A DNA stretch of 36,349 nt from Ignavibacteria bacterium (GTDB lineage: Bacteria > Bacteroidota > Ignavibacteria > Tepidaquicellales > Tepidaquicellaceae). The stretch spans positions 1-36,349 of the forward strand of contig VGWA01000011.1 of NCBI GenBank assembly GCA_016873795.1, read 5' to 3'. A program made the position numbers and the translations under genes. Position 1 is the first letter of the stretch. Each line of letters starts with the position of its first letter. Positions 13,786 through 23,435 of the stretch are shown in pieces. The notes under the pieces are model-generated. The model was not told the DNA's origin and ran no database searches. It was given only the letters and a program-made list of their open reading frames with translations.

Positions 13786-13820
13786 AGAAGTAAAAAGAAA
13801 TAATGAAAGGAGAAATCGAA

Positions 13821-14315
13821 ATGAAAACAATGAAAATTTTAAATGCTGTGTTGATAATTATGTTAATTGCATCGTTAAGTTACGCTCAGAGAAACGAAGG
13901 AAAAGGAGAAAGATGGGATGTGGATAATGTGGTTACAGTTAACGGTACTATTACGAATAATTCAAGGCCTTACGCAATATTGAGAGGCGATGATAATCAG
14001 GAATATGAAGTACATCTTGGTCCCATCTGGTACTGGGAACAGAATAATTATTCACTCGATTTATCTAATGTTACAATCAAAGGAGAATTGAAAAATTATA
14101 AAGGCAAGAACGAACTTTATCCGTTTGAAATAATTCAAAGCGGAAGAACTATGAAATTTGCCGACGACAACGGTGTGCCGTACTGGTCAGGCGGAAAAGG
14201 AAAGAAAGGAAAAGGCTGGAGAAGAGGTTACAATAATAGTAACTGGGACGATGACGTGCGGGGACCCGGATGGAGACAGGGAAAACAAAATTGCTGGAGA
14301 TGGCAAAACAATTAA
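13821..14315 (+). CDS. Small secreted protein, probable OB-fold-like domain with Trp/Gly/Arg-rich tail
   Basis: Function not recognised. An in-frame ATG at 13803 overlaps the ribosome site: AGGAG at 13808-13812 stands eight bases before ATG 13821, so the latter is the start (about 164 residues). A signal peptide (KILNAVLIIMLIASLSYAQ) is followed by a short beta-rich region (VVTVNGTITNNSRPYAILRG, then YEVHLGPIWYW and VTIKGELKNYKGKNELYPFEI). That order of strands resembles bacterial OB-fold or cation-binding export proteins. The tail is packed with Trp, Gly, Lys, Arg and Asn (GGKGKKGKGWRRGYNNSNW, GPGWRQGKQNCWRWQNN), suggesting binding to a surface polymer or metal. It has its own promoter and terminator, so it is a monocistronic, probably regulated, unit. 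Confidence 0.75.
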   Translation: MKTMKILNAVLIIMLIASLSYAQRNEGKGERWDVDNVVTVNGTITNNSRPYAILRGDDNQEYEVHLGPIWYWEQNNYSLDLSNVTIKGELKNYKGKNELYPFEIIQSGRTMKFADDNGVPYWSGGKGKKGKGWRRGYNNSNWDDDVRGPGWRQGKQNCWRWQNN

Positions 14316-16647: not shown

Positions 16648-16893
16648 ATGAAACTAAAATCTAACATAGCTACAAGCGAAACAGGATTCATCTTTAATCC
16701 TTCTACAGGAGATTCCTTTTCTGCAAATGCTGTAGGAATGGAAATCATATCCCTTCTTAAGAAAAACAAACCGCTTAATGAAATCAAAAAACATATTCTG
16801 GATAAATATAATGTAGATGAAGCGGTTTTTGAAAAAGATTATGACGATTACATAGCACAGCTGCAGTTCTATAATTTAATTGATACGATGTAA
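16648..16893 (+). CDS. PqqD-like protein (RiPP-recognition-element fold)
   Basis: 81-residue stand-alone PqqD family protein. The family pattern is plain: TGFIFNPSTGDSFSANAVG (beta hairpin and turn), then AVGMEIISLLKK, NEIKKHILDKYNVD and the last helix DDYIAQLQFYNLID. In known systems this winged-helix fold binds the leader of a precursor peptide or accompanies a carrier. No radical SAM gene and no evident precursor peptide lie next to it. Its stop touches the ATG of the ATP-grasp gene with zero spacing, so the two are certainly coupled. The start has no Shine-Dalgarno sequence but is the first ATG and fits the family length. Confidence 0.82.
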   Translation: MKLKSNIATSETGFIFNPSTGDSFSANAVGMEIISLLKKNKPLNEIKKHILDKYNVDEAVFEKDYDDYIAQLQFYNLIDTM

Positions 16894-17973
16894 ATGAAAA
16901 AAGACAAAGTAATAAAAAATAAATCTGACAAAATCCGTGAAGTAACGGTTGCACTGACGGGGCTAAATGCAATTGACAGTCCCGGTCCCGGTGTAGCAGT
17001 CATCAGATGTCTGAAGGAAATGCCTGATTTTCGGTTCAGGATTATCGGATTGTCTTATGAAGCACTTGAACCGGGAATTTATATGAACGATATAGTGGAC
17101 AAGACTTATCAGATTCCGTATCCGTCGGCGGGTACTGAATCGTTGTTTAACAGAATTAAATATATTAACGAAAAAGAAAATCTCGGTTTAATAATACCGA
17201 ATTTCGATGCGGAATTATATAATTTCATTAAACTCGTTCCGAAATTTGAGGCGCTCGGTATAAAAACTTTTTTCCCTGCAATGGAACAATTCGAAAAAAG
17301 GGATAAGATTAATCTGTTTGATTTCTGCAAAAAAAACGGATTTTTATGCCCGAGAGATAAAACAATTGTTAAAATAGATGAGCTGAAAATTCCTGCGGGA
17401 AAATTCGGATTTCCGCTTGTGATTAAAGGAAAATATTACGAAGCCGCAGTTGCACACAGCTTCGATGCAGCACAGAAAGCATTTCTGAAAATATCTTCTA
17501 AGTGGGGCTTACCGATTATAGTACAGGAATTTATAAAAGGTACGGAAATTAATCTTGCGGCAATAGGAGATGGAAATGGAAATACCATAGGTGCAGTACC
17601 CGTCCGGAAATTATATATTACAGATAAAGGAAAATCATGGGCGGGAATTACACTCGAAGATAAATCATTAATCGAACTTGCGGAAAAGTTCATTGCAGTC
17701 ACAAAATGGCGAGGTGGATTTGAACTCGAAATTATGAGAACTCCCGAAGGTAAACCGTATATTATGGAAATCAATCCGAGATTTCCGGCTTGGATATATT
17801 TGTCTTCTGCAGCAGGGCAAAATCATCCCGCCGCACTTGTAAGAATGGCTTTCGGAGAAAAAGTCAAACCATATAAAAATTATCGAGTAGGGAAAATTTT
17901 TATCCGATATTCATGGGACCTTGTAACCGATGTAGAAAAGTTCCAGAAAATATCGGCATTCGGCGAAATTTGA
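16894..17973 (+). CDS. ATP-grasp ligase (carbamoyl-phosphate-synthase/biotin-carboxylase type)
   Basis: 359-residue ATP-grasp enzyme, predicted to form an amide or similar bond through an acyl-phosphate. The N-terminal pre-ATP-grasp domain has the glycine loop NAIDSPGPGVAVIR. The ATP-binding part shows FPLVIKGKYYEA, IIVQEFIKGTEINLAAIGDG and, for Mg2+ and phosphate, Glu279 (FELEIM) plus Glu292/Asn294/Arg296 in MEINPRFPAW. It resembles PylC/CarB-like ligases that join amino acids more than purine enzymes. It lies between the PqqD-like and the decarboxylase-like genes, so the three probably act on one substrate. The acceptor and donor cannot be read from the sequence. Confidence 0.85.
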   Translation: MKKDKVIKNKSDKIREVTVALTGLNAIDSPGPGVAVIRCLKEMPDFRFRIIGLSYEALEPGIYMNDIVDKTYQIPYPSAGTESLFNRIKYINEKENLGLIIPNFDAELYNFIKLVPKFEALGIKTFFPAMEQFEKRDKINLFDFCKKNGFLCPRDKTIVKIDELKIPAGKFGFPLVIKGKYYEAAVAHSFDAAQKAFLKISSKWGLPIIVQEFIKGTEINLAAIGDGNGNTIGAVPVRKLYITDKGKSWAGITLEDKSLIELAEKFIAVTKWRGGFELEIMRTPEGKPYIMEINPRFPAWIYLSSAAGQNHPAALVRMAFGEKVKPYKNYRVGKIFIRYSWDLVTDVEKFQKISAFGEI

Positions 17974-18001
17974 TTAATTAAAAAATGAAATATAAAATAA
18001 T

Positions 18002-19360
18002 ATGGATAAATTAAGATATGAAAGACCGTCAATCAAGCAAATGAATGCCGGATTGATGAATCAATACGGATTAAAAACCGAATATGCTCCGGTTCTTGAT
18101 ATAGACGGTGTACCGGTTAAAAAAATTATTTCTGAATACGGCTCGCCTGTGTTTGTTATCTCTGAACGGCAGCTGAGAAGAAATTATCAAAATGCGGTCA
18201 GAGCATTTAAAACCAGATACCCTAAGGTTCAGTTCGCCTGGTCTTATAAGACGAATTATCTCGATTCGGTATGCAGAGTTTTTCATCAGGAAGGTTCATG
18301 GGCTGAGGTTGTTTCGAGATTTGAATATCAGAAAGCACTGCGCAACGGAGTGCCGGGTAAAAAAATTGTTTTTAACGGACCTGATAAGAGAGAAGAAGAT
18401 ATCATCACTGCAATCAAAAATGATTCGCTTCTGCATATTGACCACTTCGACGAATTGTATCTGACTCTGGAACTTGCCGAAAAGTTAAATAAAAAACCGA
18501 GAGTGGCTATACGGGTTAATATGGATACAGGCATCTATCCGATGTGGGACAGATTCGGTTTTAACTATGAAAACGGTCAGGCATGGAATGCTATAAATAA
18601 AATTATGGCATCCGGTAAACTCGAATTCACGGGATTGCATACTCATATCGGAACATTTATGCTTGTTACTTCCGCTTATGCAGCGGCAGCTTCGAAGTTG
18701 TGCGACCTCGCGTATAATTTCAGGATTAAATTTAATAAAAATATTGAATATATAGACATCGGCGGAGGATTTCCGTCAACGAATACATTGAAAGGTTCTT
18801 ACCTGCAGGGAGTAGATACAGTACCGTCAATAGATGAATTTGCAGAAGCAATTACAAATACAATTGTTAATTACGGATTTAAACCTGAAGACCTTCCTAC
18901 TCTCATACTCGAAACAGGAAGAGCACTTGTTGATGATGCGGCGTTTTTACTCGGAACCGTTCTTGCTACTAAACGTCTGTCCGACGGAAGAAGAGCTACT
19001 ATTATGGATTTTGGAGTGAACCTGCTGTTTACTTCTTATTGGTATGACCATGAAATTTCTCCCGCTCAGGAATTTACGCAAAACTCCGAGGATATGGTCG
19101 TCTACGGTCCGCTGTGTATGAATATCGATGTTGTCAGGGAAAATATTAATCTGCCTCTGCTTCAGAAAGGAGATAATGTTGTTGTGCACAAAGTCGGAGC
19201 ATATAATATGACGCAATGGCAGCAGTTCATTACTATGAGACCTAAAGTCATACTTATCGATATGCAAAGAAATGTTCATATTATCCGAGAAACTGAAACA
19301 CTGGATTATATCACGGAACTTGAAAAAGTTCCCCAACACTTAACCGAAACAAATTTATAA
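18002..19360 (+). CDS. PLP-dependent decarboxylase, diaminopimelate-decarboxylase-like (fold type III)
   Basis: 452 residues with all PLP-binding elements of the LysA/ornithine-decarboxylase group: Lys83 in WSYKTNY (Schiff base), His215 in GLHTHIGT, Gly254-256 in IDIGGGFPS, and ETGR at 304-307 in place of the usual EPGR. In the C-terminal barrel the catalytic Cys372 and Asp376 are present as PLCMNIDV, and GAYNM follows. In true LysA the Cys is followed by Glu (CESxD), which contacts the distal end of diaminopimelate; here it is Met. The substrate is therefore probably not free diaminopimelate. A carrier- or peptide-bound amino acid is possible, as for BtrK of butirosin synthesis, which works after the ATP-grasp ligase BtrJ. 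It lies 28 bases after the ATP-grasp gene. Confidence 0.87.
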   Translation: MDKLRYERPSIKQMNAGLMNQYGLKTEYAPVLDIDGVPVKKIISEYGSPVFVISERQLRRNYQNAVRAFKTRYPKVQFAWSYKTNYLDSVCRVFHQEGSWAEVVSRFEYQKALRNGVPGKKIVFNGPDKREEDIITAIKNDSLLHIDHFDELYLTLELAEKLNKKPRVAIRVNMDTGIYPMWDRFGFNYENGQAWNAINKIMASGKLEFTGLHTHIGTFMLVTSAYAAAASKLCDLAYNFRIKFNKNIEYIDIGGGFPSTNTLKGSYLQGVDTVPSIDEFAEAITNTIVNYGFKPEDLPTLILETGRALVDDAAFLLGTVLATKRLSDGRRATIMDFGVNLLFTSYWYDHEISPAQEFTQNSEDMVVYGPLCMNIDVVRENINLPLLQKGDNVVVHKVGAYNMTQWQQFITMRPKVILIDMQRNVHIIRETETLDYITELEKVPQHLTETNL

Positions 19361-19364
19361 TAAC

Positions 19365-21560
19365 GTGCCTAAGAGATCTTTTCTATCAAATATTAAATTA
19401 CTTTCCGAAGGCGTTATTAAAAGTTATTCGGTAATTTTTTATTCTCAGAGTTATCTGCTGGGATTCCTGCTTATCGCCGTAACTTTTTTAAATCCGGTTA
19501 CGGGTTTGTACGGTGTTGTCTCCTGTCTGACGGCAAATGTTTTTGCGGTTTATACAGGTCTTAATGAAAAGCAAATAAAAGAAGGACTGTTCGGGTTTAA
19601 TTCCGTACTTATTGGAATTGCTGTTGCTTTTTATTTCCGGTTTACAGCTTATTCACTGGTGATTCTTATTTTCATTTCGCTCTTTACCGTGATTATTTCT
19701 GTTTGGCTCAGCGGATGGCTCGGAAAATACGGCTTACCGTATCTTAGCTTGCCTTTTATGATTATGCTCTGGATACTACTTCTTGCTTCGAAACAGTTTC
19801 CCATTCTTACGATGAATACGGGTGCCGATGCTTTGTTCTTTTCTCAGTTCGGTGCGGCAGTAAAAACAGCTGCAAACTTTGCAGGATTTAATGAGTACAT
19901 TTCATCAACCAATTTCCAGCTTGTTGTTTCGGGTTACCTGAAATCTTTATCAGCGATTCTTCTGCAGCCGGATAACTTCACAGGTTTTATTATTGCTGTC
20001 GGTCTGCTCGTTTATTCGCGGATTGCTTTTACTCTGTCTGTTATCGGGTATATATTTGCATTGATTCTGTATTCTGTTGCAGGAGTAGCTTTGTCTCATA
20101 CCGATTATTATCTTATCGGATTTAATTATATACTGACTGCAATTGCAATCGGAGGTTTCTTTACCGTTCCTTCTCTGAATTCGTATTTGTGGATTTTTTT
20201 CCTGACTCCTATTATTGCTCTTGTTATTCACAGTTCGTCTCTTCTACTTTCTGTCGTATTCCTACCGGTTTATTCGCTTCCTTTTTGCATAGTCGTTATT
20301 TTATTTCTTTATTTTGTCAAGTTCAGATATACAGGCAAGGGAATTAAACTGATAATGTATAATTATTATTCGCCGGAAAAAAATTTATATAAACATCTGA
20401 ATTTCGGCGAGCAATTCAAAAACAGCATTTATTATATTTTTCAACTGCCGTTTTGGAGCGAATGGAAAGTAACTCAGGGCTATAACGGCGGAATTACCCA
20501 CACAGGCGATTGGGCAGGAGCTCTGGACTTCGAAATTTATGACGAAGAACAAAAACCTTATATGAATAATCCTTCGAAAATCGAAGAATATTATTGCTAC
20601 AATAAACCTGTGCTTGCGCCGGCAGACGGATTTGTAACTGAAGTAGTTAACCATGTCGACGATAATAAGCCGGGAGAAGTGAATGTGAATGAAAATTGGG
20701 GTAATACGGTAATAATTTATCACATACAGGGCTTGTATTCCAAACTTTCACATTTGAAAAAAGGAAGTATCAAAGTCGTTAAAGGTCAATATGTAAAAAA
20801 AGGCGATACAATCGGTTACTGCGGAAATTCAGGCAGATCTCCGTTTCCGCATTTGCATTTTCAGGTTCAAACTACACCATATATCGGCTCGAGAACACTC
20901 GAATATCCGATAAGTTATTATCTGACTGATAATAATAACTCGAAAGAACTTAAGATTTTTGAAATTCCGGAAAAAAGCGATATTGTATGTAATGTTTTGA
21001 AAAATCCTCTGCTGAAAAATGCTTTTAATTTTTTACCGGGAAAAATATTCAATGTTAAAATTACAACGCCTAAAGGAATCAGAGAAGAAAAATGGGAAGT
21101 TTTTACGGACGCTTATAATTATACTTATATCTACTGCCATAAATCAAAAGCGTATTCTTATTTTGTAAATAATGATACAATGCTTTATTTTACGGATTAC
21201 GAAGGGTATAAAAAATGCGGACTTTATTATTTTTATATTGCTTTGAATAAAGTATTGCTGGGCTTTTATCCCGAAATAAAAATATCGAATAAACTTCCTG
21301 TAAATATATTGAATAATAAACTGCTGTTTCTTATACAGGATTTTGTTGCACCGTTTTTTCAGTTTATCAATCCGATATATAAACTTGAATACAAAACAGC
21401 AAAAGATGAATTTGCCGTTAATGAACTTGTATTAAATACAAAAATTTACACGAAAATTTTTAATTTTAAAACAAAAGAAAAGAATTTTGTAACAGAACTG
21501 AAAAATGATAAAATAAGCAAAATAATTTTTGATGATAAAATAACTATGGAGTTTATGTAA
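19365..21560 (+). CDS. Urea-transporter-family channel fused to M23 peptidase domain
   Basis: 731 residues. Residues about 10-320 are a urea transporter (UT) domain with about ten membrane helices. The two internal repeats are marked by EGLFGFNSVLIGIAVAF and GFNYILTAIAIGGFF, the UT signature. Residues about 370-510 are an M23 (lysostaphin-type) metallopeptidase domain with zinc ligands His379 and Asp388 (HTGDWAGALDF) and the HLH pair His496/His498 (FPHLHFQV), so it looks catalytically intact. The last 220 residues form a further beta-rich region I do not recognise. The start is GTG, five bases after the preceding stop. The fusion puts a peptidoglycan-binding or -cutting domain in the periplasm next to a small-molecule channel. 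No urease genes are nearby. Confidence 0.85.
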   Translation: MPKRSFLSNIKLLSEGVIKSYSVIFYSQSYLLGFLLIAVTFLNPVTGLYGVVSCLTANVFAVYTGLNEKQIKEGLFGFNSVLIGIAVAFYFRFTAYSLVILIFISLFTVIISVWLSGWLGKYGLPYLSLPFMIMLWILLLASKQFPILTMNTGADALFFSQFGAAVKTAANFAGFNEYISSTNFQLVVSGYLKSLSAILLQPDNFTGFIIAVGLLVYSRIAFTLSVIGYIFALILYSVAGVALSHTDYYLIGFNYILTAIAIGGFFTVPSLNSYLWIFFLTPIIALVIHSSSLLLSVVFLPVYSLPFCIVVILFLYFVKFRYTGKGIKLIMYNYYSPEKNLYKHLNFGEQFKNSIYYIFQLPFWSEWKVTQGYNGGITHTGDWAGALDFEIYDEEQKPYMNNPSKIEEYYCYNKPVLAPADGFVTEVVNHVDDNKPGEVNVNENWGNTVIIYHIQGLYSKLSHLKKGSIKVVKGQYVKKGDTIGYCGNSGRSPFPHLHFQVQTTPYIGSRTLEYPISYYLTDNNNSKELKIFEIPEKSDIVCNVLKNPLLKNAFNFLPGKIFNVKITTPKGIREEKWEVFTDAYNYTYIYCHKSKAYSYFVNNDTMLYFTDYEGYKKCGLYYFYIALNKVLLGFYPEIKISNKLPVNILNNKLLFLIQDFVAPFFQFINPIYKLEYKTAKDEFAVNELVLNTKIYTKIFNFKTKEKNFVTELKNDKISKIIFDDKITMEFM

Positions 21561-21567
21561 TTAGCCT

Positions 21568-22812
21568 ATGATGTATTTGCAGCAGATAATAATTAACGTT
21601 TATACTTCCAAAAAAAATATAATCAGAAATTTAATTTTTTTGATTGTGCTGACTTATATGATCCCGTCATCTGCGGAATCCCAGCAAATATTGAGCACAA
21701 AAACTGTGGACAGCATTTCATATTCTTACTATATGAACAAAGACTGGACTAAACTTATCGATTTTGCTGAAAATTCGATTGATAACGGATTTGAATTTGC
21801 AATGCTGAGAATGCGTCTCGGAATCGCATATTTTGAAAAAAGTAATTATATAGATGCAATAAAGAATTTTGAAAAAGTTCTCGAATTCGATAGTTCGAAT
21901 AAAACTGCGATGGAATATCTTTACTATTGCAATAAGTATCTGAACCGCGATGGTGAAGCGGATTATACAGCATATAAATTTCCTGAAAGCGTTCGGAAAA
22001 AAATTAATTACAGAAGCATCAGATTAGCCGAAAGAGTAAATCTGGAAGGAGGAGTTAAATTCAACAACAATAAAGACAGGGATAATCTGATGTATTATTA
22101 CATAGGACTGGATAATACTCTGCTTCCTGTATTGAAACTTTCTCTTTATTTTCAGCAGTATCAGCAGAAAAAATATTATGACTTCTTTAATTTCGTGCAA
22201 AATAAAAAAGACAGATATTCATTTACGGTCAATCAATATCAGTATTTTATAAAACCTTCGTTACATTTACCGTTGAATATCACGGTTATACCCGCATTTA
22301 ATTATGTGTCGACTAAATGGAATAACACTTATACTTACTCGAGGGGTTATCATTTATCGGTTATAAAATCTGTTTCGAAATTCGATGTCGGCGGATATTT
22401 CAATTATTCAGATTTAAACAACAGCTATCAGCGTCAGTGGGGATTGTATTTCAATACATATCCGCTTGGAAATTTGAATTTATATACATTATCAACACTG
22501 ACTTTACAAAATCAGAACAAAACAAATTATATAATCTTTGACCAGGTCCTCGGAGGCAAGGTATCCGATTTTCTCTGGCTCGAAGCATCCGCAACGTTCG
22601 GGGATATAGATAATTATACCGAAAAACAGGGATTATATATATATAACTCGATTGATAAAACGACTTTTAAATTCGGTTCATCAGCAATTTTTTATATCAG
22701 CAGCGAATTTCAATTCGAAATTCAGTATCAACTGGAAAATAAAAAACAATTCGGAACTAATAAGGAATATAAACAAAATGCAATAATAGGAGGAATAAAA
22801 TGGACATTTTAA
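21568..22812 (+). CDS. TPR plus outer-membrane beta-barrel protein (YaiO-like architecture)
   Basis: 414 residues. A basic N-terminus and hydrophobic segment (NLIFLIVLTYMIPSSAESQQ) form a signal peptide. Residues about 45-125 contain two TPR-like helix pairs (RMRLGIAYFEKSNYIDAIKN followed by FEKVLEFDSSNKTAMEYLYY). From about residue 150 on, alternating aromatic strands build a barrel (LEGGVKFNNNKDRDNLMYYY, then repeated YFQQY and FNYS segments) ending in IIGGIKWTF, a textbook C-terminal Phe. The layout resembles YaiO family barrels. Two ATGs (21568, 21571) are possible. Its 3' end overlaps the next gene by 13 bases. Confidence 0.78.
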   Translation: MMYLQQIIINVYTSKKNIIRNLIFLIVLTYMIPSSAESQQILSTKTVDSISYSYYMNKDWTKLIDFAENSIDNGFEFAMLRMRLGIAYFEKSNYIDAIKNFEKVLEFDSSNKTAMEYLYYCNKYLNRDGEADYTAYKFPESVRKKINYRSIRLAERVNLEGGVKFNNNKDRDNLMYYYIGLDNTLLPVLKLSLYFQQYQQKKYYDFFNFVQNKKDRYSFTVNQYQYFIKPSLHLPLNITVIPAFNYVSTKWNNTYTYSRGYHLSVIKSVSKFDVGGYFNYSDLNNSYQRQWGLYFNTYPLGNLNLYTLSTLTLQNQNKTNYIIFDQVLGGKVSDFLWLEASATFGDIDNYTEKQGLYIYNSIDKTTFKFGSSAIFYISSEFQFEIQYQLENKKQFGTNKEYKQNAIIGGIKWTF

Positions 22813-23435
22813 AAAACATTTCCCCGCGCAAACTGGGAATCGTATTTATATTATTCTTTTTCTGCTTGACCGCATCTGAATCGTTTACTCAGGACTTGGA
22901 AAAGGTGTTTTCGGCAAGTTATATTTATGAAAAGAAAGGTGATTATGCATCAGCAATAATAGAAATAATGGATGTATATGTAAGCGATTCATATCAGATG
23001 AATACACGTCTCGGATGGTTGAATTATCTTGCGGGAAACTTTACTGAATCACGGCAGTATTACGGCAAATCAATCAATCTGAAGCCGGGTGCACTGGAAC
23101 CGAAATTTGGTTATGCTAATACATCCGCTTCACTTGGAAACTGGGATGACGCAATGGAACAGTATTTTGAAATTCTGAAAATTGATCCTAATAACACTTT
23201 TGCAAGCTTCCGTCTCGGAATGATTTATTACAACAGGGAAGACTATTCAAAAGCATTTGCGTTATTCGAAAAAGTTGCGAATTTTTATCCGCTCGATTTC
23301 GACTCGAATCTCATGCTCGGATGGACATACTGGAGACTCGGGAAAAACTCTGAAGCAAAAGAAATGTTCAAAATAGCATTATTAATTTCACCTGGCAATG
23401 CCTCTGCCAATGAAGGATTGAGCCTTATAAAATAA
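22800..23435 (+). CDS. Periplasmic TPR-repeat protein
   Basis: 211 residues. A perfect AGGAGG at 22788-22793, six bases before ATG 22800 and inside the end of the barrel gene, fixes the start and shows tight coupling. Signal peptide: LGIVFILFFFCLTASESFTQ. The mature part is five to six tetratricopeptide repeats (for example YYGKSINLKPGALEPKFGYA, DAMEQYFEILKIDPNNTFA, AFALFEKVANFYPLDFDS, AKEMFKIALLISPGNASA). It is probably a periplasmic scaffold for the barrel and the UT/M23 protein. Its last base is the A of the miaA start codon (TAATG). Confidence 0.8.
   Translation: MDILKNISPRKLGIVFILFFFCLTASESFTQDLEKVFSASYIYEKKGDYASAIIEIMDVYVSDSYQMNTRLGWLNYLAGNFTESRQYYGKSINLKPGALEPKFGYANTSASLGNWDDAMEQYFEILKIDPNNTFASFRLGMIYYNREDYSKAFALFEKVANFYPLDFDSNLMLGWTYWRLGKNSEAKEMFKIALLISPGNASANEGLSLIK

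Follow-up and report, generated by a model that had tools for sequence, protein, structure and literature searches.

A conserved ligase, decarboxylase and channel-peptidase gene set of Bacteroidota with the marks of a previously undescribed system

A stretch of 36,349 nucleotides from an Ignavibacteria bacterium (contig VGWA01000011.1 of assembly GCA_016873795.1), referred to here as the window, carries between positions 16648 and 23435 six open reading frames (ORFs), all on the + strand, and raises the question whether they constitute a system of their own and what such a system could make. They encode, in order, a small PqqD-like protein, an ATP-grasp ligase, a pyridoxal phosphate (PLP) decarboxylase with likeness to LysA, a fusion of a urea-transporter (UT) fold with an M23 peptidase domain (UT-M23), an exported tetratricopeptide repeat (TPR) protein with an outer-membrane barrel and a further exported TPR protein. 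A preliminary description had taken these genes for an undescribed operon in which an amino acid is ligated to a peptide or carrier, decarboxylated and passed out through the envelope. The gene order and the spacings of 0, 28, 4 and 7 bases followed by an overlap of 13 bases are confirmed by the ORF coordinates (Table 1), and the domain calls (PqqD, ATP-grasp, LysA-like fold, UT with M23, TPR) by the Pfam and NCBIfam scores on which our assignments rest. That the gene set is a real unit is virtually certain. Its status as a previously undescribed system is strongly supported: the conservation described below bears out the original claim, and no description of the set was found in the open-access papers searched, most subscription papers lying outside that search.

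A single scan of GTDB genomes, for which the ATP-grasp protein served as query, gave 80 loci (48-69% identity), mainly from Bacteroidales, Flavobacteriales, Sphingobacteriales, Chitinophagales, Cytophagales and Balneolales, some of the records being titled Chlorobiota. The PqqD-like gene is situated immediately 5' of the ATP-grasp gene in 78/80 loci and the decarboxylase gene 3' of it in 76/80; two of the four loci that do not show the latter end just past the ATP-grasp gene. In 47 of the 80 loci the six genes are all complete and keep this order, with median spacings of 2, 41, 33, -13 and -13 bases, and this conservation of gene order far exceeds chance. Cultivated carriers include Pedobacter paludis (L030), Flavihumibacter stibioxidans (L022), Yeosuana marina (L068) and Thermaurantimonas aggregans (L032). 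UT-M23 is not encoded in the remaining sequence of two contigs (L031 with 0.7 kb left and L066 with 2 kb left), and insertions of 1.6 kb are seen at its position in L029 and L010.

Genome-wide occurrence was analysed in a sample of 296 Bacteroidota genomes, taking long matches of >250 bits as UT-M23 and matches with E <1e-40 as ATP-grasp. The two proteins co-occur in an identical set of 27 genomes, referred to below as system genomes. Two genomes of the Cytophagales type encode the ATP-grasp protein, the decarboxylase and UT-M23 on separate contigs and have retained all three. The loci L024 and L025, considered as exceptions with the ATP-grasp gene alone, were rejected as such, UT-M23 and the decarboxylase being encoded elsewhere in the same genomes. 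A second sample comprised 195 genomes of the phylum around a Victivallaceae locus (L062) and is referred to here as the PVC sample (Lentisphaerota/Verrucomicrobiota group). The ATP-grasp protein is encoded in five of these, and in all five carriers (L062, L134-L136, L137) the genes of the PqqD-like protein, ATP-grasp ligase, decarboxylase and UT-M23 are consecutive, while three Verrucomicrobiota-type loci among them have no TPR or barrel gene adjoining the core. In genome G321 UT-M23 falls below the chosen threshold, yet a divergent copy is encoded directly downstream. The pairwise distance matrices of the six protein families correlate with r = 0.70-0.89. The loci fetched from class-mates of the window's organism have the same four genes in order with the TPR gene mostly next; most of them have no barrel gene at the expected position and show another exported, barrel-like gene 3' of the TPR gene.

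The co-occurrence profile, the retention on scattered contigs, the correlated distances and the loci that lack the barrel together identify the first four genes as the functional unit and the TPR/barrel pair as accessory. The four-gene core is one evolutionary and functional unit. The neighbourhood check that had been proposed, at least four of the six genes together in distant genomes, is greatly exceeded by the 47 complete loci, the co-occurrence in the same 27 genomes and the core of the PVC carriers, whereas the envelope set as an obligatory whole is contradicted by the swapping of the barrel in the window's own class and its absence from the Verrucomicrobiota loci.

Table 1. The six genes of the set in the window, with positions in the whole stretch and the evidence for each assignment (aa, amino acids)
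Feature	Coordinates	Strand	Evidence
PqqD-like small protein, 81 aa, core gene 1	16648..16893	+	PF05402 38.6 bits
ATP-grasp ligase, 359 aa, core gene 2	16894..17973	+	PF15632 43 bits, PF02655 37 bits
PLP decarboxylase, alanine-racemase fold, 452 aa, core gene 3	18002..19360	+	Orn_Arg_deC_N 98.6 bits
UT-M23 fusion, 731 aa, GTG start, core gene 4	19365..21560	+	PF03253 188.6 bits, PF01551 62.4 bits
Exported TPR protein with 14-strand outer-membrane barrel, 414 aa, accessory	21568..22812	+	AlphaFold2, Foldseek
Exported TPR protein, 211 aa, accessory	22800..23435	+	four TPR repeats after N-terminal signal segment

What the core may do is best approached through the decarboxylase. Its best solved relative is the N-citrylornithine decarboxylase FigC (7kh2, E 6e-61, 210 bits), followed by LysA of M. 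jannaschii (5e-45) and BtrK (2e-26, 96 bits). The specificity helix of FigC carries Thr327, Thr330 and Tyr331, its Met355 replaces an acidic residue of LysA and ornithine decarboxylase, and its His357 and Arg387 contact citrate; the determinants of LysA are an Arg that binds the distal carboxylate of diaminopimelate (DAP) and the acidic residue after the catalytic Cys (PMC7857480). The PLP Lys83, Cys372 and Arg307 are conserved in the operon enzyme, and the pocket residues T344, W347, Y348, M373, I375 and Q405 are near-invariant over 91 homologues. The positions of the FigC type are partly kept, with Thr at Thr327 and Tyr at Tyr331 in 89/91 homologues each and Met at Met355 in 90/90, the position of Thr330 being occupied by Trp. 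Both citrate contacts are lost (His357 to Ile in 90/90, Arg387 to Gln in 91/91), as are the determinants of LysA, the DAP-binding Arg position being Thr in 89/91 and the acidic position after the catalytic Cys being Met in 90/90. The PVC enzymes share this pocket signature except for Trp406, which is Ser.

The scores of the operon enzyme against LysA range from 213 to 248 bits in the 27 system genomes and lie below the curated cut-off of 297.9, and a separate LysA with 366-508 bits is encoded in 23 of them. The window's genome (G000) and G031, G116 and G124 encode no separate LysA above the cut-off, which may reflect lysine auxotrophy, assembly gaps or another route. Since separate LysA genes exist and the DAP and citrate contacts are both lost, the enzyme is neither LysA nor a citryl-amino-acid decarboxylase. 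A FigC-like pocket devoid of citrate contacts predicts that the substrate is an amino acid conjugated through an amide and uncharged at its distal end. Judged by the LysA scores and the pocket residues, the enzymes are not the ordinary genes of lysine or carbamoyl-phosphate metabolism that would have spoken against the preliminary description. Neither the operons nor their recurrent neighbours include a recognisable NRPS-independent siderophore (NIS) synthetase as a partner.

The ATP-grasp ligase represents a family of its own, with a mean column identity of 62% and ~60 invariant residues over 24 diverse members. Its solved relatives, the large chain of carbamoyl-phosphate synthase and 2pn1, are distant, and a search of the PDB with the profile of the family returned generic ATP-grasp enzymes alone. 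The PqqD-like protein exceeds the PF05402 cut-off of 23.4 bits and is weakly similar to the lasso and WgkC PqqD chaperones. In the alignment of its homologues the N-terminal motif NIA.S..GF.F.P..G.S is kept and the C-terminus varies. The window's genome encodes a second PqqD domain (G000:C40:5636-5806, 29.6 bits). A precursor or carrier peptide was searched for among ~511 small ORFs within 700 bases upstream and 600 bases downstream at ~77 loci. The small-ORF clusters obtained were rejected as precursors, being start fragments of the PqqD-like gene, antisense of upstream genes or other artefacts. No carrier-protein-like gene occurs among the recurrent neighbours, and genes of radical-SAM, lasso, transglutaminase-like or ABC-exporter proteins do not recur near the loci. 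The peptide or carrier substrate of the preliminary description is accordingly not supported, no conserved small ORF having been found. Of its analogy to BtrJ/BtrK, the order of ligation and then decarboxylation of the conjugate fits the decarboxylase pocket.

The UT-M23 protein comprises a UT fold of 10 transmembrane (TM) helices, a LytM/M23 peptidase domain and a C-terminal domain of ~200 aa with no Pfam match. Its AlphaFold2 model (predicted local distance difference test, pLDDT, 90.8) matches dvUT (TMt 0.84) and LytM folds in Foldseek. The zinc-binding and catalytic residues H379, D388, H496 and H498 (HD/HxH) are present in 49/49 homologues and in 3/3 PVC copies, the catalytic residues being intact. 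The equivalents of the pore phenylalanines are kept in 48/49 (F27), 42/49, 47/49 and 35/49 homologues, and the equivalent of T130, the Thr of LPxxTxPF, is Ser in 49/49. Of the two polar urea-site residues of dvUT, Q24 and E187, the former is Gln in 33/49 and the latter is replaced by Ala, Ser or Leu in 49/49. The pore keeps half of the urea site. Because the E187 site is lost and a real urease (>100 bits) is encoded in 1/27 system genomes, a urea role is unlikely, or else untied to urea catabolism; the passage of urea proposed earlier is not borne out, one of two polar residues of the site never being kept and urease being absent from 26/27 genomes.

In the UT fold, as in dvUT and UT-B, both ends lie on one side of the membrane. 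The loops on the side of the termini average 9.6 K+R and 3.8 D+E, and those on the other side 3.4 and 6.4. The excess of K+R on the termini side is found in 49/49 Bacteroidota and 3/3 PVC homologues, and on the basis of these positive-inside charges the M23 domain is predicted to be cytoplasmic. The periplasmic location assumed in the preliminary description is thereby opposed in 52/52 proteins, though the most similar M23 proteins that stand alone carry signal peptides or membrane anchors directing them to the outside. Two proteins of other Bacteroidota (L112 and L120) combine an M23 domain with several N-terminal TM helices of a non-UT type, and their loop charges suggest an M23 domain on the outside.

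The call of a TPR-barrel protein is upheld by its AlphaFold2 model (mean pLDDT 92.6), which consists of a signal segment, TPR helices and 14 long strands. Foldseek matches include the porins FadL and OmpG and the TPR-barrel exporters BcsC, PelB and PgaA, the TM-scores to the three exporters being 0.26-0.54. The TPR gene overlaps the barrel gene by 13 bases, and relatives have the two genes in the same order. The TPR-barrel is considered accessory because it is replaceable or absent in some loci, and an obligatory route through the outer membrane is not established. Between the window and the nearest homologue the two enzymes are 69% and 74% identical and UT-M23 43%, while the barrel homologues are 20-32% identical to the window protein; this far higher conservation of the enzymes argues for a constant chemistry with diverging envelope parts.

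We assign a probability of roughly 0.35-0.4 to the following mechanism as a whole. The ATP-grasp ligase would join an amino acid and a small partner by an amide bond at the expense of ATP, with the PqqD-like protein as a helper that presents the substrate or regulates the ligase. The enzyme of LysA fold would then decarboxylate the amino acid in its conjugated form, giving an amine that bears the amide and lacks a charge at its distal end. Where the UT pore opens, the active M23 zinc domain would hydrolyse or trim the conjugate, and the resulting small polar compound could pass the inner membrane by way of the pore. For Bacteroidota, transfer of this compound across the outer membrane, or its retention there, may be the part of the periplasmic TPR protein and the TPR-barrel. 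The enzymes are distinct from LysA and from those of rhizoferrin synthesis and urea catabolism; the product and the direction of its transport are only inferred. Several observations weigh against this mechanism. The amine left by the decarboxylation step fits badly with a pore whose usual solutes are neutral, unless it is removed in the hydrolytic step, and the export of the stand-alone M23 relatives conflicts with a cytoplasmic role of the domain in that step. No close homologue of the ATP-grasp ligase is characterised; no conserved precursor or carrier peptide ORF was found around the ~77 loci, and the barrel and TPR genes are absent beside the core in three Verrucomicrobiota-type loci. It is doubtful whether one may go further and see a cytoplasmic ligase-decarboxylase line docked to a repurposed urea channel, whose own M23 domain in the cytoplasm would release the finished small molecule directly into the pore. 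This would be a new kind of channel-coupled synthesis and export of a metabolite, found in two phyla or more and including a decarboxylase of new specificity. The mechanistic sketch of the preliminary description is plausible in outline (ligation, decarboxylation and the crossing of a membrane), but its periplasmic M23 domain, urea-like cargo and obligatory outer-membrane route are not established.

Other readings of the same genes have to be weighed. The UT domain could be inverted, so that a periplasmic M23 domain cuts peptidoglycan locally for a trans-envelope conduit of TPR and barrel proteins which exports an amide or amine product. The exported stand-alone M23 relatives and the envelope nature of the TPR and TPR-barrel neighbours are consistent with this, and Cys411 and Cys486, conserved in 48/49 and 38/49 UT-M23 homologues, could form a disulfide; yet the loop charges place the termini inside in all the Bacteroidota and PVC homologues, the UT fold has both ends on one side, and UT-M23 is retained where barrel and TPR are absent, so that we hold the inversion possible but rather unlikely. 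Still less probable is a peptide pathway. Here the PqqD-like domain would bind a precursor or scaffold peptide from an unlinked gene, an amino acid would be attached to this peptide and decarboxylated on it, and M23 would act as the peptidase for release. Such a pathway would account for a PqqD domain above the Pfam cut-off with likeness to the lasso and WgkC chaperones and for an active M23 domain tied to the core, but neither a conserved small ORF nor any of the recurrent genes usual to the radical-SAM, lasso, transglutaminase-like or ABC-exporter types accompanies the loci.

A metallophore pathway of the carboxylate type, as in FigA/FigC or SbnE/SbnH but with the ATP-grasp ligase taking the role of the NIS synthetase, is suggested by the nearness of the decarboxylase to FigC and by the upstream genes, among them AraC-type helix-turn-helix (HTH) regulators with an MxCxxC-like stretch (25 loci), DUF2202 (16 loci) and Metal_resist/LTXXQ proteins. 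A siderophore would not fit through the UT pore. The loss of the citrate contacts (H357 to I, R387 to Q), an operon with neither NIS synthetase nor TonB receptor gene and the occurrence of DUF2202 in 1/27 system genomes also make such a pathway very improbable. Ordinary synthesis of lysine or polyamines beside a urea-uptake gene would agree with the LysA-like and UT annotations and with the lack of a second LysA in the window's genome. It is refuted by the separate true LysA of 23/27 genomes, the lost DAP/ornithine-binding residues, the near-absence of urease (1/27) and an E187 that is never kept, and we give it next to no credence. The ligase-decarboxylase-channel mechanism set out above is the most likely of these readings.

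The window's copy was likely acquired horizontally. The system was not found in the sampled genomes of the same family and the same order, and the window's enzymes share 66-74% of their residues with the closest copies from Bacteroidia, its ATP-grasp protein only 40-54% with those of class-mates. In the tree the copy is nested among Bacteroidia copies, the support of the enclosing clades being 0.97-0.99; it is the lack of the system in close relatives, together with the nearness of Bacteroidia copies by identity and tree, that argues for the transfer. The window's genome is an assembly of 2.70 Mb in 273 contigs and is 97.6% complete.

The neighbourhood of the operon varies. In the window the TPR gene is followed by miaA with an overlap of 1 base at 23435. 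A small AraC-type HTH regulator lies directly 5' of the PqqD-like gene in 25 loci (including L034, L046, L051, L068 and L075); its N-terminus resembles a heavy-metal-associated domain and is often MxCxxC-like, partly degenerate. It is possibly the operon's regulator. DUF2202 is encoded upstream of the operon in 16 loci (including L008, L015, L019, L021, L033, L043 and L034), and a metal link through it was rejected on its genome-wide count. Secreted proteins of ~260-280 aa that end in a type IX sorting tail have been identified between the ATP-grasp and decarboxylase genes or just 5' of the PqqD-like gene (L040:11068-11847, L067, L075, L077 and L081; 5' of the PqqD-like gene in L088-L096). Dependence on the type IX secretion system, with the PorU sortase always present, was rejected, as the system genomes G119 and G266 have background sortase matches alone (5e-9 and 2e-7). 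Similar-looking small secreted proteins are encoded upstream in the window (13803-14312, no Pfam match) and in L092, there as the third gene upstream. In L135, L136 and L137 the core is preceded by a sigma-factor-like gene and a Ser/Thr kinase, the kinase domain being scored in L135 and L136, and L135 has an FHA protein; this suggests phospho-signalling control of the Verrucomicrobiota-type loci. The single-contig genome G124:C1 has the operon at both ends, probably because the overlapping ends of a circular chromosome were left untrimmed.

About 9% of the sampled Bacteroidota genomes, from many families, keep the set as one unit, and it has also reached the Lentisphaerota/Verrucomicrobiota group, which implies a widely selected metabolite or envelope process. 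Such a process has been overlooked because its parts carry misleading annotations (LysA, carbamoyl-phosphate synthase, urea transporter). Within the set, the decarboxylases form a subfamily for which a new substrate is predicted, and the predicted topology of the channel-peptidase fusion is at odds with either the positive-inside rule or the place where M23 domains are usually found.

Each part of the set has known counterparts from which it departs. The barrel protein resembles BcsC, PgaA and PelB in having an outer-membrane barrel after periplasmic TPR helices, and differs from them in its short TPR region, its 14 strands and a cluster with no polysaccharide synthase. The M23 domain has the H, D and HxH residues and the fold of LytM/M23 peptidases, but it is fused to a channel and predicted to be cytoplasmic, unlike its exported relatives. 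The 10-TM fold and the largely kept pore phenylalanines are those of the urea transporters (dvUT, UT-A/B), in contrast to which an M23 and a further domain are fused here, E187 is lost and there is no link to urease. In butirosin synthesis the ATP-grasp partner is BtrJ. Like BtrJ/BtrK, the operon pairs an ATP-grasp enzyme with a decarboxylase of the same clade, which in the case of BtrK acts on a carrier-bound amino acid (PMC7857480); BtrK however is a far weaker match than FigC, and the operon cluster includes no acyl carrier protein. From FigA/FigC the set differs in the use of ATP-grasp instead of an NIS synthetase, in Ile and Gln instead of His357 and Arg387, and in the PqqD-like, UT-M23, TPR and barrel proteins that stand in place of a siderophore transporter. 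Thr327, Tyr331 and Met355 of FigC are common to both enzymes, and the likeness to FigA/FigC (FslA/FslC) of rhizoferrin synthesis, SbnH and AcsE lies in a ligase that couples an amino acid through an amide or ester bond and in the decarboxylation of the conjugate by an enzyme of alanine-racemase fold (PMC7857480).

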